From assembly GCF_036322705.1 (NCBI RefSeq), contig NZ_AP027270.1, positions 2,357,501 through 2,421,500 on the forward strand: a stretch of 64,000 bases of DNA. Reading direction: 5' to 3'. This DNA is from Maricaulis maris (lineage in GTDB: Bacteria; Pseudomonadota; Alphaproteobacteria; Caulobacterales; Maricaulaceae). How positions within the stretch are numbered: the first letter of the stretch is position 1; each line of letters starts with the position of its first letter. The position numbers were made by a program, and so were the translations under genes. Shown here in pieces: positions 47,687-51,925 of the stretch. Below the pieces are notes generated by a model. It saw only the letters and a program-made list of their open reading frames with translations. It searched no databases and was not told the DNA's origin.

Positions 47687-48625
47687 CTAGAAGTCGGTGA
47701 TGGAGCTGACCGACACCGAGTTGCCGATCGCGGCAGCCGTGGCGGAGACGTCACCGGCGACATCGGAGATCGTCGCATTGGCGACCGCGCCGGTATAGGC
47801 GTTGTTGAGCTGGGTCGAGTTGAGACGAATGTCTGCTGTCTGCGGCAGTGTCGAGACGCTCAACGAGTTCGAGATGGCTGCTGTTGTGCTGCTCACATTC
47901 CCGGTGACATCAGAAACACCGACATTCGAGTAGGCACGCGGGTCAACATTGGTGGTCTGATAGTTGGTGATATTGGCCCAATCGGTCGCCTGGACGTCAT
48001 AGGATGCCGAGTTCGCGATGGCCGCCGAGGTCAGCGCGACCTCGCCCTGGACGTCCTCGACATGGCCGTTCAGCGTGGAGATCGCGTCTCCGCGGAAGAA
48101 CTGGTTGTTGCTGAGGTTCAAGCCCTCGCCAGCCGCCTCAACCGACAGCGAGTTGCCGATGGCCGCGGCGGTACCGCTGACATTGCCGACAACATCGTCA
48201 ACCCCGATATTCAGGTCGGCCCGGAAAACACCGGTTGCGCGCTGGTTATTGACGAGCGACGCGTAGTCACTATCGCCAACCGTTGCACTGGCAGAGTTTC
48301 CGATCGCCGCCGCGGTCGCGGAGACATCGCCCACCACCGCATTGATGTCAGAGTTCAGCTCGGCTGATGAATCACGGTAGGTGGTCTGATAATTCTGGAT
48401 CTGGACATTGCCCGCAATATCCGCGGAAAACGAGTTGTTGATCGCGGCAGCGGTCAGCGAAACCTCGCCGTTGATGCCATCAATCTCCGAGTTCAATTGG
48501 GCACGGGATTGCGCCCAGTTCGTCTGAACGTTGCGGACCGTTTGATCTTGGGCCGATGCGGACGCCGCAAATGCGGCAAAAACCAAAACGGTACAGCCGC
48601 CGGCAACGAGTGTCTTCTTGCTCAT
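47687..48625 (-). CDS. Secreted repeat protein, HfaD-like holdfast anchor candidate
   Basis: A 312-residue exported protein: signal peptide to about residue 25 (SASAQ), then six degenerate repeats of about 47 residues. Each ends in a V-x-G-x-V-x-x-T-x-A-A-I-x-N-S-x-S pattern; the Asn-Ser pairs fall at 64, 110, 158, 205, 253 and 302. Low-complexity, Asn/Ser/Ala-rich strands suggest a beta-helix or amyloid-like surface protein. The same IGNSVSxS motif occurs in the neighbouring HfaA, and it is divergent from hfaAB, so holdfast anchoring is the likely role. GGAAGGAAACGAC precedes the ATG. Confidence 0.65.
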   Translation of the reverse strand: MSKKTLVAGGCTVLVFAAFAASASAQDQTVRNVQTNWAQSRAQLNSEIDGINGEVSLTAAAINNSFSADIAGNVQIQNYQTTYRDSSAELNSDINAVVGDVSATAAAIGNSASATVGDSDYASLVNNQRATGVFRADLNIGVDDVVGNVSGTAAAIGNSLSVEAAGEGLNLSNNQFFRGDAISTLNGHVEDVQGEVALTSAAIANSASYDVQATDWANITNYQTTNVDPRAYSNVGVSDVTGNVSSTTAAISNSLSVSTLPQTADIRLNSTQLNNAYTGAVANATISDVAGDVSATAAAIGNSVSVSSITDF

Positions 48626-49211
48626 GTCGTTTCCTTCCTAGGACTAAAGCTGCAGCACGGTCGTCCCGCCTGCACGGTCGACCTCGCAACCGACGAACCA
48701 CTCCAAAACCGGAGATTTCATTAGTATTTATAATGGATTAACGGCAAATATCGCATTCAAAACAAATACGGTTTTCCGCGGTAAAACTTATGGCGACGAG
48801 ATGGGGTTAATTGATTCAAATTTGCACAAAAAAATTAACCGCAAATTTGGGACACTGGCACAGATGAAGTGTTCAATTTTATAACACAATTTCTCATATA
48901 GGCACAGAATGTAAAAGCGGACATCCTCGAAACCCTATAATCAACAAAGAAAAATAATAGATCCTCGAATTCAATTAATAGGATATTTGAGATTTTTCTT
49001 TTAGCGATATAGGGGAATTTCATTGTTTAATTTTGTCGGCATAAATCCCGCAATAGGAGTATTTTTACTTGTTGTAAATGTTAACGGAATCTCCTCTCCC
49101 TGTTAAAATCCTGATTTTATTAAAATTGGAGATAAATGGCCCGGCATCGATCGGCATCTGGCCTCACCGTTGCAGTTCACATCCCGAACAACAGATATCC
49201 GGGAGCGGACC
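48626..49211. other. AT-rich divergent regulatory region of the hfa locus
   Basis: About 590 bases between the HfaD-like gene and hfaA; the stretch 48720-49140 is strikingly AT-rich against GC-rich surroundings. It holds no gene I trust; a 62-codon frame (48835-49023, minus) lacks a ribosome binding site. Repeated TTAAC elements are visible: ATTAACGGCAAATA at 48737, ATTAACCGCAAATT at 48834 and GTTAACGGAAT at 49080. TTAAC matches half of the CtrA site, so cell-cycle control is possible. Poly-A/T tracts would also suit a silencing protein. Confidence 0.55.
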
Positions 49212-49637
49212 ATGAACATCGCACATTATATAATAGGAGCCGCTACCAGCCTGGCTCTGGTCGGCCCGGCCTTCGCGCAAACAAACAGCTTTGGCGCGCC
49301 GCAAACCCAGCCATACGGCACCACATTCTCGCAAAGTGCACAGCCATATCAGCCCGCAGGGCGAGACGAGAACGGTAACCGGATCATTATCAACGGCCAG
49401 TTGATGGGATCCGGCGCCAGCAACAACCCGGCCCGCACCCGCGCAGGCCTCGCCAGTCGAAGCGGCTCCACGCTTCCAATGGGCGGAACGCTGAGCCGGG
49501 CGGGCACGACAGCCGTCAGCATCGGCAATAGCGTCTCGATTTCCGGGACCGTGGCCAGCACCATCATCATCAACCAGACCAACAACAGCTCGCAGACCGT
49601 CAATGTGAACGGCACGCCCCAGACGAGAGGCCGATAG
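49212..49637 (+). CDS. hfaA: Holdfast anchoring protein HfaA
   Basis: A 141-residue exported protein: signal peptide to about residue 22 (AFAQT), a Gln/Pro/Gly/Ser-rich segment, the GRDENGNRIIINGQL block, then a C-terminal beta-prone region TTAVSIGNSVSISGTVAST with many Asn/Gln/Ser. This curlin-like composition and the adjacency to a CsgG-family gene match HfaA of Caulobacter, which anchors the adhesive holdfast to the stalk tip. GGGAGC precedes the ATG at 49212. One base separates it from hfaB. Confidence 0.75.
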   Translation: MNIAHYIIGAATSLALVGPAFAQTNSFGAPQTQPYGTTFSQSAQPYQPAGRDENGNRIIINGQLMGSGASNNPARTRAGLASRSGSTLPMGGTLSRAGTTAVSIGNSVSISGTVASTIIINQTNNSSQTVNVNGTPQTRGR

Positions 49638-49638
49638 A

Positions 49639-50889
49639 ATGCGTCGCTTTGCCCTGCCGCTCATCGCAGCCCTATTGCTGCCTGCCTGCTCGACGACGCA
49701 GGATCCGGACGCCCCGGTCGCGTATGTCGCGCCTCTGACGGGGAGCCCGGTCGTCCAGTCCCGGAGCGTCTATACTGAAGCCCTGCACTGCTTGGCCGAC
49801 CATGCCCGGTCGCAGAACTATGCCGCGCCAAGGCTGGCCGTCGGACATATCTCCGACTTGACAGGTGCGGAGGACTACCTCTCCGGTCGCCGCCTGACCC
49901 AGGGCGCCACACTGATGGCAATAACCGCCGCATCAGAGGCCGGCATGCGTCTGGTGGAGCGCTTCGACATGGGCGTCGTGCAGGTCGAGCTCGATTATGC
50001 CCAGAGCGGCCTGGTCCGGGATGCGCCCAATGTTCTTCGCACGGTCCAGCGCGGACAGATGGAGGGCGCAGACCTCTACCTGGTTGGCGGAATTACCGAG
50101 TTCAATCCAAATATTCGCTCGAGCGGAACCAACGCCTTTGCCAATACCACCAGCCAGACCGGCGGCGCGCTGGCTTTTGGCGGCAGCGAGTACATCGTCG
50201 ATGTCGGAATTGACCTGCGCCTGATTGACGTTCGCTCCACCGAGGTCCTCGCGGTCCGCTCCCTGCGCAAGCAGATCCGTGGACAGGAAGTCGAAGCTGG
50301 TGTCTATGCCTTCCTGGACGGGACGGTCCTGGATATTGGCGGGGGCGAACGCGCGCTGGAACCTGTTCAGACCGCCGTCCGGAGCATGATCGACCGCGCG
50401 GTCTTCGAGTTCATGGCGATGCTCTACGACCTTGAATCCGGTTCCTGCATCGATGGCCAACCAGCCTTGGCCCGTCAACAAACGGCGCAGATCCGGCCTG
50501 CTCCGACGGCGACTCTGGTGCAGGAAGCGCTACCCGAACAGCCTCAGGCTCTGGCAAGTAACGCCCGGAGCGAGATCCCGAGGAACCCGATACCGCCATC
50601 CCGCTTGCCGCCGACGAATGGTTATGGCCTGCATATCGCCTCAGAGCTGACGGTCTGGAACGTCAATCGTGAGTGGCGCGAGCTGCGCGCGATCTATGCC
50701 GACCTGTTGGCCGGACGCGCCGGACGCGTCCTGCGGGTCGAACAAGGTCATGGCGGTGCCGAATTCCACCTTCTGGCCGGGAGCTGGCAGACCGAAAGCG
50801 AGGCCGTGGCAACTTGCGAGGCGATCCGTCAGCGCGGTGGTACCTGCGCCGTCGCCCCGTTCGACGGGCAACCGGTCATGCGGGGCTGA
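49639..50889 (+). CDS. hfaB: CsgG-family holdfast lipoprotein HfaB with C-terminal SPOR domain
   Basis: A 416-residue lipoprotein. Lipobox LLLPAC (Cys17), a CsgG-type domain (about 40-265; GRRLTQGATLMAITAAS, GADLYLVGGITEFN, YIVDVGIDLRLIDVRSTEV), a Pro/Gln/Ala linker (about 270-326) and a SPOR-like domain (about 327-408; YGLHIASE ... EFHLLAGSWQTESEAVATCE ... GTCAVAPFDG). CsgG proteins form outer-membrane export channels for amyloid-type subunits, here probably HfaA and the HfaD-like protein. SPOR domains bind peptidoglycan stripped of stem peptides at septa, so the fusion could place the channel at the new pole. Confidence 0.85.
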   Translation: MRRFALPLIAALLLPACSTTQDPDAPVAYVAPLTGSPVVQSRSVYTEALHCLADHARSQNYAAPRLAVGHISDLTGAEDYLSGRRLTQGATLMAITAASEAGMRLVERFDMGVVQVELDYAQSGLVRDAPNVLRTVQRGQMEGADLYLVGGITEFNPNIRSSGTNAFANTTSQTGGALAFGGSEYIVDVGIDLRLIDVRSTEVLAVRSLRKQIRGQEVEAGVYAFLDGTVLDIGGGERALEPVQTAVRSMIDRAVFEFMAMLYDLESGSCIDGQPALARQQTAQIRPAPTATLVQEALPEQPQALASNARSEIPRNPIPPSRLPPTNGYGLHIASELTVWNVNREWRELRAIYADLLAGRAGRVLRVEQGHGGAEFHLLAGSWQTESEAVATCEAIRQRGGTCAVAPFDGQPVMRG

Positions 50890-50893
50890 TCCC

Positions 50894-51925
50894 TCAGGCG
50901 CCCGGCAGGGTCCGGCCAATGGCCAGAAAGCGCTCGCGGCGCTGCTGGCGCAGGGCCTTGGCGTCCATCTGCTCGAGCTGCCCGAGGTGCTTTTCGATGG
51001 CATTGCCGACCGAGGTCATCGTGGCCGCGGCATGCCGATGGGCCCCGCCAATCGGTTCCGGAATGACCTGGTCGACGATCTTCATGGCCAGCAGATCCGG
51101 CGCGGTCACTTTCATGGCGACAGCGGCGTCCTTGGATCGCTTCATGGCCAGCAGATCCGGCGCGGTCACTTTCATGGCGACAGCGGCGTCCTTGGATCGG
51201 GCCGAATCCTTCCACAGGATGGAGGCGCAGCCTTCCGGCGAGATCACCGAATAGATCGAATGTTCCAGCATCATCACGACATTGGCGCTGGCCAGGGCCA
51301 CGGCACCGCCGGACCCGCCTTCACCGGTAATGGTGGAGATCAGCGGCGTGCCGAGCGTCAGGCAGCGTTCGGTGGAGCGCGCGATGGCCTCGGACTGGCC
51401 GCGCTCTTCCGCGCCAAGCCCGGGATAGGCACCGGCGGTATCCACGAAGGTAAGAACCGGCAGGTTGAACTTTTCGGCCAAATCCATCAGGCGGATCGCC
51501 TTGCGATAGCCTTCCGGGCGCGCCATGCCGAAATTGTGCTTGATGCGGGTTTCGGTATCGTGGCCCTTCTCATGGCCGATCACGACCACGGAGCGACCGC
51601 GGAAGCGGCCCAGGCCACCGACGATGGCGGCATCCTCGGAGAAGCGGCGATCGCCGCACAATTCCTCGAAATCCTCGATCAGCGCCTTGCGGTAATCACG
51701 GAAATGAGGGCGCTCGGGGTGACGAGCCACCAGCGTCTTGCGCCAGGGGTCGAGCTTGGAATAGAGCGCGGCAAGCTGTTCGCTCGCCTTCTGACGCAAG
51801 CGCGCCGTCTCTTCAGCCGTGTCCGGAGAGTCTTCACCCGCAAGGGATTCGAGCTCTTCGATCTTGGCTTCAAGCTCGGCCAGCGGCCGTTCGAAATCGA
51901 GATAGGTACGAGTGGGGTCGGACAT
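50894..51925 (-). CDS. accA: Acetyl-CoA carboxylase carboxyltransferase subunit alpha, with internal duplication
   Basis: A 343-residue alpha subunit of the carboxyltransferase that makes malonyl-CoA for fatty acid synthesis. Family blocks are intact: [49 protein letters not shown] and [13 protein letters not shown] 20-residue segment is present twice in tandem (243-262 and 263-282) just after SILWKDSA, making the protein about 20 residues longer than the usual size. It converges with hfaB (4 bases apart) and belongs to a minus-strand run with xerD. Confidence 0.95.
51080..51199 (-). repeat. Perfect in-frame 60-bp tandem duplication inside accA
   Basis: Bases 51080-51139 and 51140-51199 are identical over all 60 positions, with mismatches immediately outside. 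The copies correspond exactly to codons 263-282 and 243-262. Sequence identity at synonymous sites shows the duplication is recent, or an assembly or sequencing artefact. Confidence 0.97.

Follow-up and report, generated by a model that had tools for sequence, protein, structure and literature searches.

Here, we provide evidence that a gene of Maricaulis maris, here named hfaB2, encodes a real fusion of a CsgG/HfaB-type lipoprotein with a SPOR fold, and that it is an accessory paralogue, separate from the canonical HfaB of the same genome. The gene (49639..50889, + strand) belongs to a second hfa module within the window, by which we mean the whole 64,000-nucleotide stretch of contig NZ_AP027270.1 that was analyzed. 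Both halves of the protein come from known families, and their union in a second hfa module seems not to have been described in the literature searched.

Architecture of HfaB2

The reading frame begins with ATG and encodes 416 amino acids, as the original prediction had it, and its product is predicted to be an outer-membrane lipoprotein composed of a CsgG channel domain, a linker and a SPOR domain. The signal peptide and lipobox (LLPAC, ending at Cys17; 49639..49689, + strand) were read by eye, and the lipobox claimed earlier is indeed present, with Cys17 invariant in all 11 aligned fused proteins, a set that counts the window protein and its near-identical twin, and throughout a broader, 38-row HfaB alignment, while Pfam LPAM_1 matched one of the 11 fused members. 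The CsgG domain (residues 59-259; 49813..50415, + strand) matched PF03783 at 67.7 bits against a gathering cut-off of 20.8, and CsgG was matched by Pfam in each of the 11 full-length fused members. The full-length AlphaFold2 model adopts a CsgG-like fold (mean pLDDT 75.7, pTM 0.52, so the monomer is only partly confident), and its best solved matches in Foldseek were CsgG chains (E 1.2e-13), which bears out the CsgG-like region of the original prediction. The C-terminal domain of this model is confident and the linker is not (pLDDT <50 at residues 283-315). The predicted Pro/Gln/Ala linker (residues 273-326; 50455..50616, + strand) was likewise recovered, 27 of its 54 residues being proline (11), alanine (9) or glutamine (7), and it holds the most nonsynonymous change of the three HfaB2 segments. 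The SPOR domain and a short C-terminus, with His332 and the pair Cys393/Cys403, occupy residues 327-416 (50617..50886, + strand).

The C-terminal tail is a SPOR domain

Scanned alone, the window tail scored 14.5-15.0 bits against PF05036 (E 0.033-0.046), under the 21-bit gathering cut-off, and the full-length window protein gave no SPOR row at E 1 in Pfam. The Pfam check proposed with the original prediction was therefore positive for PF03783 and negative, for the window sequence itself, for PF05036, and the SPOR assignment rests on the relatives of the tail and on its fold. Nine of the 11 full-length fused members had a SPOR match with an E value of 1 or lower, the lowest being 7.3e-7, and when seven other window-type tails were scanned singly, five scored above 21 bits (28.9, 24.6, 23.9, 34.6, and 30.0) and two fell narrowly under it (20.1 and 19.6). 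Profile comparison with hhalign of eight tails and 22 other SPOR domains of the family genomes, drawn from the stronger Pfam hits and with the genome's own mipZ-linked copy (L049, which has His) excluded, returned a probability of 99.0% (E 3e-18). Structure prediction for residues 322-416 (AF2, pLDDT 93.6) yielded the RNP-like SPOR fold, with the order beta-alpha-beta-beta-alpha-beta, and the strands and helices at 329-407 fit the domain limits of 327-408 that had been proposed. In Foldseek, this model retrieved RlpA, RlpA with denuded glycan, and the CwlC SPOR at ranks 1, 3, and 4 with probability 1.00, at modest E values of 0.009-0.013 (no match reached E 0.001), and a permuted ribosomal protein S6 at rank 2 with probability 0.92. 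When the PDB was searched by sequence with a profile of the tail, the matches were at the level of chance, the DamX SPOR coming third with an E value of 0.18. With homologous tails above the cut-off, a strong profile match and a SPOR fold, the SPOR-like domain first recognized in the window stands.

The SPOR domain of HfaB2 is under purifying selection. Across a set of seven of the 11 fused genes, in which synonymous change was saturated in many pairs, including every SPOR comparison with the second copy of genome G070, dN/dS ranged from 0.04 to 0.21 for the SPOR part in computable pairs and reached up to 0.20 for the core. The least saturated distinct pair, from genomes G070 and G071, gave 0.04 for the SPOR domain, 0.03 for the core, and 0.13 for the linker.

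A second hfa module apart from the canonical hfaABD set

One base separates hfaB2 from the end of the hfaA-like gene hfaA2 (49170..49637, + strand; likely ATG at 49212), so the two are probably carried on a single transcript. The divergent hfaD-like gene hfaD2 (47687..48625, - strand) encodes a repeat-rich product of 312 amino acids with a signal-peptide-like start. Between hfaD2 and hfaA2 lies an A+T-rich region (48626..49169, unstranded), with a G+C content of 46% versus 59-63% in adjoining windows and with blocks conserved in four genomes, which likely contains the promoter or promoters of both genes. It holds one near-match to a CtrA site (48727-48742, one mismatch); at least one was present in 36 of 100 shuffles, and CtrA control is not claimed. 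HfaA2 also matched a HET-s amyloid domain at 19.1 bits (cut-off 32.2), which fits an amyloid-like role and is by itself no evidence of one.

The HfaB-, HfaD-, and HfaA-like proteins of the window all miss their NCBIfam cut-offs (280.8 of 300 bits for NF037935, the HfaB equivalog, 35.6 of 100, and 36.3 of 50, respectively), and the assignments of hfaA2 and hfaD2 draw also on their being conserved neighbors of hfaB2. A second HfaB-like gene, without SPOR, lies ~1.3 Mb away in the same genome in the order hfaA-hfaB-hfaD, and this distant set passes throughout (HfaB 415.7 of 300, HfaD 154 of 100, and HfaA 67.2 of 50). The HfaB identity given in the original prediction is consequently retained in the sense of a CsgG/HfaB-type lipoprotein and withdrawn in the sense of the canonical HfaB, which is part of the SPOR-less hfaABD set elsewhere. 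Of 24 hfaB2 loci examined, 21 have both an HfaA-like and an HfaD-like gene nearby, in varying order and strand, and two of the remaining three have one of them, which is why we refer to the group as a second hfa module. No second polysaccharide outlet that might serve it was seen, the genome search showing one Poly_export (HfsD-type) protein.

Phylogenetic analysis of 87 CsgG cores placed the window protein in a 26-row, long-branch clade with support of 100/100, apart from its own canonical copy, in a tree that was rooted at the midpoint, carried a long-branch warning, and did not include C. crescentus HfaB. Five further members of this HfaB2 clade miss the HfaB cut-off of 300 (250.0-278.4 bits), whereas five HfaB proteins from elsewhere in the tree score above it (360.6-412.4 bits); the latter include a Caulobacter sp. 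protein (L122) that falls outside the HfaB2 clade, yet nearer to it than does the canonical HfaB of the Maricaulis maris genome. The alternative that hfaB2 encodes the canonical HfaB with an extension was rejected on the grounds of this separate clade, the scores consistently below cut-off, and the second hfaABD set in the genome.

Tails within the clade vary: among its 26 rows, 11 end in the window-type SPOR, three in an Aquisalinus-type tail, and 12 in tails judged by eye to be of low complexity. Because other members of the clade have non-SPOR tails, the module can evidently do without this domain. The Aquisalinus-type tail gave no Pfam SPOR match, and in profile comparison it matched other SPORs at 91% (E 1e-6) and the window-type tails at 5.7%; it is possibly a second recruitment of SPOR. 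Proteins of this type (L063, L065, L139, L140, and L143, of which L140 and L143 appear identical with the contigs of L063 and L065) have Lys at the Gln position of the glycan site. The window-type SPOR rows need two changes on the core tree, and despite this their tails could still have had one origin.

Distribution of the fusion

The survey of HfaB homologues suggested with the original prediction covered 137 family genomes, of which 10 gave a match reaching into the SPOR tail (11 genes in all, one of these genomes carrying two tandem modules). All 10 also have a second HfaB-like match, which stops short of residue 300; its frame, at 335-370 residues, leaves no room for the window-type tail. 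The tail of the second HfaB was read directly in the Maricaulis maris genome only. An order-level sample of 398 genomes returned the same 10 with the window-type fusion and three more with the Aquisalinus-type tail. Among 76 named loci of species genomes, the window-type tail was recognized by eye in seven (one with two copies) and the Aquisalinus type in two, the named carriers including Maricaulis metagenome assemblies and Maricaulaceae bacterium EIL42A08. In genome G070 (L036:5029-11129), two tandem hfaD2-hfaA2-hfaB2 units lie between an acetyltransferase gene and accA, and both HfaB2 copies end in SPOR tails. Farther afield, CsgG was present in 122 of 398 sampled phylum genomes, and no CsgG-SPOR protein was seen among 20 CsgG loci, mostly with long frames, whose tails were inspected by eye and nine of which were scanned with Pfam.

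The accA region was compared in 10 genomes of the same genus without the module. In six, accA, secA, and the acetyltransferase gene are neighbors and no hfa gene intervenes, the gap being 24-324 bases in four and ~2.9 kb of other ORFs in two; the other four stretches did not contain the flanking pair, and tblastn found no hfa remnants in any of the 10. These hfa-free regions in same-genus genomes indicate that the second hfa module is accessory. As a separate observation, accA in the window contains a perfect in-frame tandem duplication of 60 bases (51080-51199; 2.0 copies, 100%), and its product has 343 residues versus 323 in the near relative G077; either this essential enzyme acquired the duplication recently, or the repeat was introduced by the assembly.

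Relatives of the SPOR tail adjoin mipZ

The best non-HfaB match to the tail in its own genome is a 220-residue, lipoprotein-like SPOR protein (L003:1195-1857; 33% identity, E 1.9e-8), which scored 22.2 bits for SPOR when the genome was searched and 20.6 when the protein itself was scanned, and which received no NCBIfam name at E 0.01. The next gene is mipZ (1915-2805; PDB 2xj4, E 1.9e-81). Of 20 loci hand-picked from the further matches of the tail, 18 have the SPOR relative adjacent to mipZ; in the remaining two, the SPOR protein is FtsN-like. In a SPOR tree built from few columns, the HfaB tails and the mipZ-linked SPORs form one group (84/81), a placement that is suggestive only. Given that the tail is closest to SPOR lipoproteins adjoining mipZ, the HfaB2 SPOR probably derives from a local, division-linked SPOR lineage. 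The mipZ-linked lipoprotein shares the H-x-x-S pattern with the HfaB2 tail, though it stands alone, with no CsgG domain, and is itself a candidate uncharacterized division protein.

Residues at the glycan site

In RlpA, a Gln contacts the glycan, and its equivalents in FtsN and DamX are reported to be needed for septal localization (PMC6895207). The position of this residue (RlpA Q270) is His332 in HfaB2 and is His in 11 of 11 aligned fused proteins, compared with Gln in all 22 other aligned SPORs. Since 18 of 19 mipZ-linked relatives, the genome's own copy included, also have His there (the remaining one has Gln), the His can be taken as a mark of this subfamily. Three further RlpA positions differ in the window protein, which has Glu for F274, His for R309, and Leu for R311. 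Seven of the 11 fused proteins have Arg at the R309 position; of the remaining four, the window protein and its twin share His, and the other two have Gln and Gly, respectively. None of the 11 departs from Ser335, which aligns with FtsN S254 and DamX S354, or from the pair Cys393/Cys403, whose spacing equals that of RgsS C931/C941.

A proposed route to the septum and new pole

CsgG forms a ring in the outer membrane with its C-termini facing the periplasm. We propose that HfaB2 would act as the export channel of the accessory hfaD2-hfaA2-hfaB2 module, forming a ring-shaped outer-membrane pore for HfaA2 and HfaD2, with its C-terminal SPOR domains hanging into the periplasm on a flexible linker of ~54 residues. 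These domains would bind peptidoglycan processed by the cell-separation amidases, and such binding may recruit the channel to, or retain it at, the constricting septum and subsequently the new pole, where dimorphic stalked bacteria build their adhesive pole. SPOR domains are reported to bind glycan without stem peptides, which is enriched at the septum (PMC6895207), and in Sinorhizobium RgsS, SPOR and AmiC keep the protein at the septum and new pole (PMC7822825). On the strength of this known binding preference and of the RgsS precedent, septal recruitment and new-pole retention of HfaB2 through its SPOR domain is our leading reading, which we hold at about even confidence. It is favored by the CsgG and SPOR identities, the hfa neighbors in 21 of 24 loci, the SPOR dN/dS of 0.04, the mipZ-linked relatives, and RgsS; weighing against it are His332 in place of Gln, the window protein's other changes at the RlpA site, the SPOR-less canonical copy, the SPOR-less tails within the clade, and the placement of HfaB in Caulobacter, where the protein reaches the stalk tip and pole in dependence on HfsDAB (PMC6707917). 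His332 and this HfsDAB dependence leave two other accounts viable.

The first is a mechanical wall anchor: fastened to peptidoglycan by its SPOR tail, the channel would bear adhesive load or keep its pore oriented, with no selection for the septum. The polar placement of Caulobacter HfaB via HfsDAB (PMC6707917) would suit such an anchor, and the residue changes in HfaB2 may relax the need for denuded glycan. Two CsgG-family proteins point in the same direction, one with a C-terminal SH3_3 match of 25.8 bits, just under the cut-off of 27 (L253:757-1878), and one with a weak PG_binding_1 match (L258; 15.7 of 23), though both matches are below threshold. However, the SPOR domains tested so far bind stem-peptide-free, septum-enriched glycan (PMC6895207), and the closest SPOR relatives found here are mipZ-linked. 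We regard the anchor as a serious rival, less likely than septal recruitment.

The second is that the SPOR fold is a docking or stabilizing module that binds no glycan, engaging divisome, holdfast-secretion, or mipZ-linked partners or shielding the protein from degradation. The change of Gln to His at the glycan site is what one would expect of it, as is the finding that mutation of C931/C941 in the SPOR domain lowers the amount of RgsS protein (PMC7822825). Against this, Ser335 is retained in all 11 fused proteins and many of the RlpA-glycan contacts run through the main chain (PMC6895207). We hold this account to be improbable. Last, a chance or low-complexity resemblance to SPOR, or a non-functional tail, is hardly credible and was rejected: although the tail of the window protein itself misses the SPOR cut-off of Pfam, homologues lie above it, the profile match is 99%, the fold is confident, and selection is purifying.

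Returning to septal recruitment, we tentatively extend it: a SPOR domain of the mipZ-linked lineage, fused to an HfaB paralogue, may couple adhesin or amyloid export directly to cytokinesis by reading the peptidoglycan mark of division, so that a dedicated channel would come to sit at the nascent pole; its glycan specificity might be looser than usual or shifted to a His-based one.

Comparison with known systems and implications

Like Caulobacter crescentus HfaB and proteins that pass NF037935, HfaB2 is a predicted outer-membrane lipoprotein of the CsgG type whose gene has HfaA- and HfaD-like neighbors, these being below their own cut-offs in the window; it differs in scoring under the cut-off that the genome's own SPOR-less copy exceeds. 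With the curli channel CsgG it shares the fold and the PF03783 domain, whereas a SPOR tail is absent from the solved CsgG chains, the top three matches measuring 246-257 residues. Its tail has the fold of the RlpA and CwlC SPORs, and the Ser/Ala and Gly positions and SPOR profile of RlpA, FtsN, DamX, and CwlC; in those proteins SPOR is carried by an enzyme or division protein, in HfaB2 by a CsgG channel and with His for the glycan-binding Gln. RgsS of Sinorhizobium meliloti is likewise an alphaproteobacterial SPOR protein, and its Cys pair has the same 10-residue spacing (PMC7822825), but it is an FtsN-like division protein and HfaB2 a predicted outer-membrane channel. In agreement with the original prediction, which knew of no CsgG-SPOR fusion in the Hfa system, the open-licence literature searched, HfaB, holdfast, curli, and Maricaulis contexts included, yielded no account of a CsgG-SPOR protein; an earlier description elsewhere is possible.

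How holdfast anchor proteins are placed at the correct pole is not fully explained, the reported placement in Caulobacter being HfsDAB dependent (PMC6707917). The HfaB-type channels of the HfaB2 clade swap their C-terminal tails, SPOR being one option, and the SPOR tail of HfaB2 is a possible pole-targeting module. A natural fusion of channel and SPOR domain would offer a testable, direct route from the chemistry of the septal wall to the placement of adhesins.
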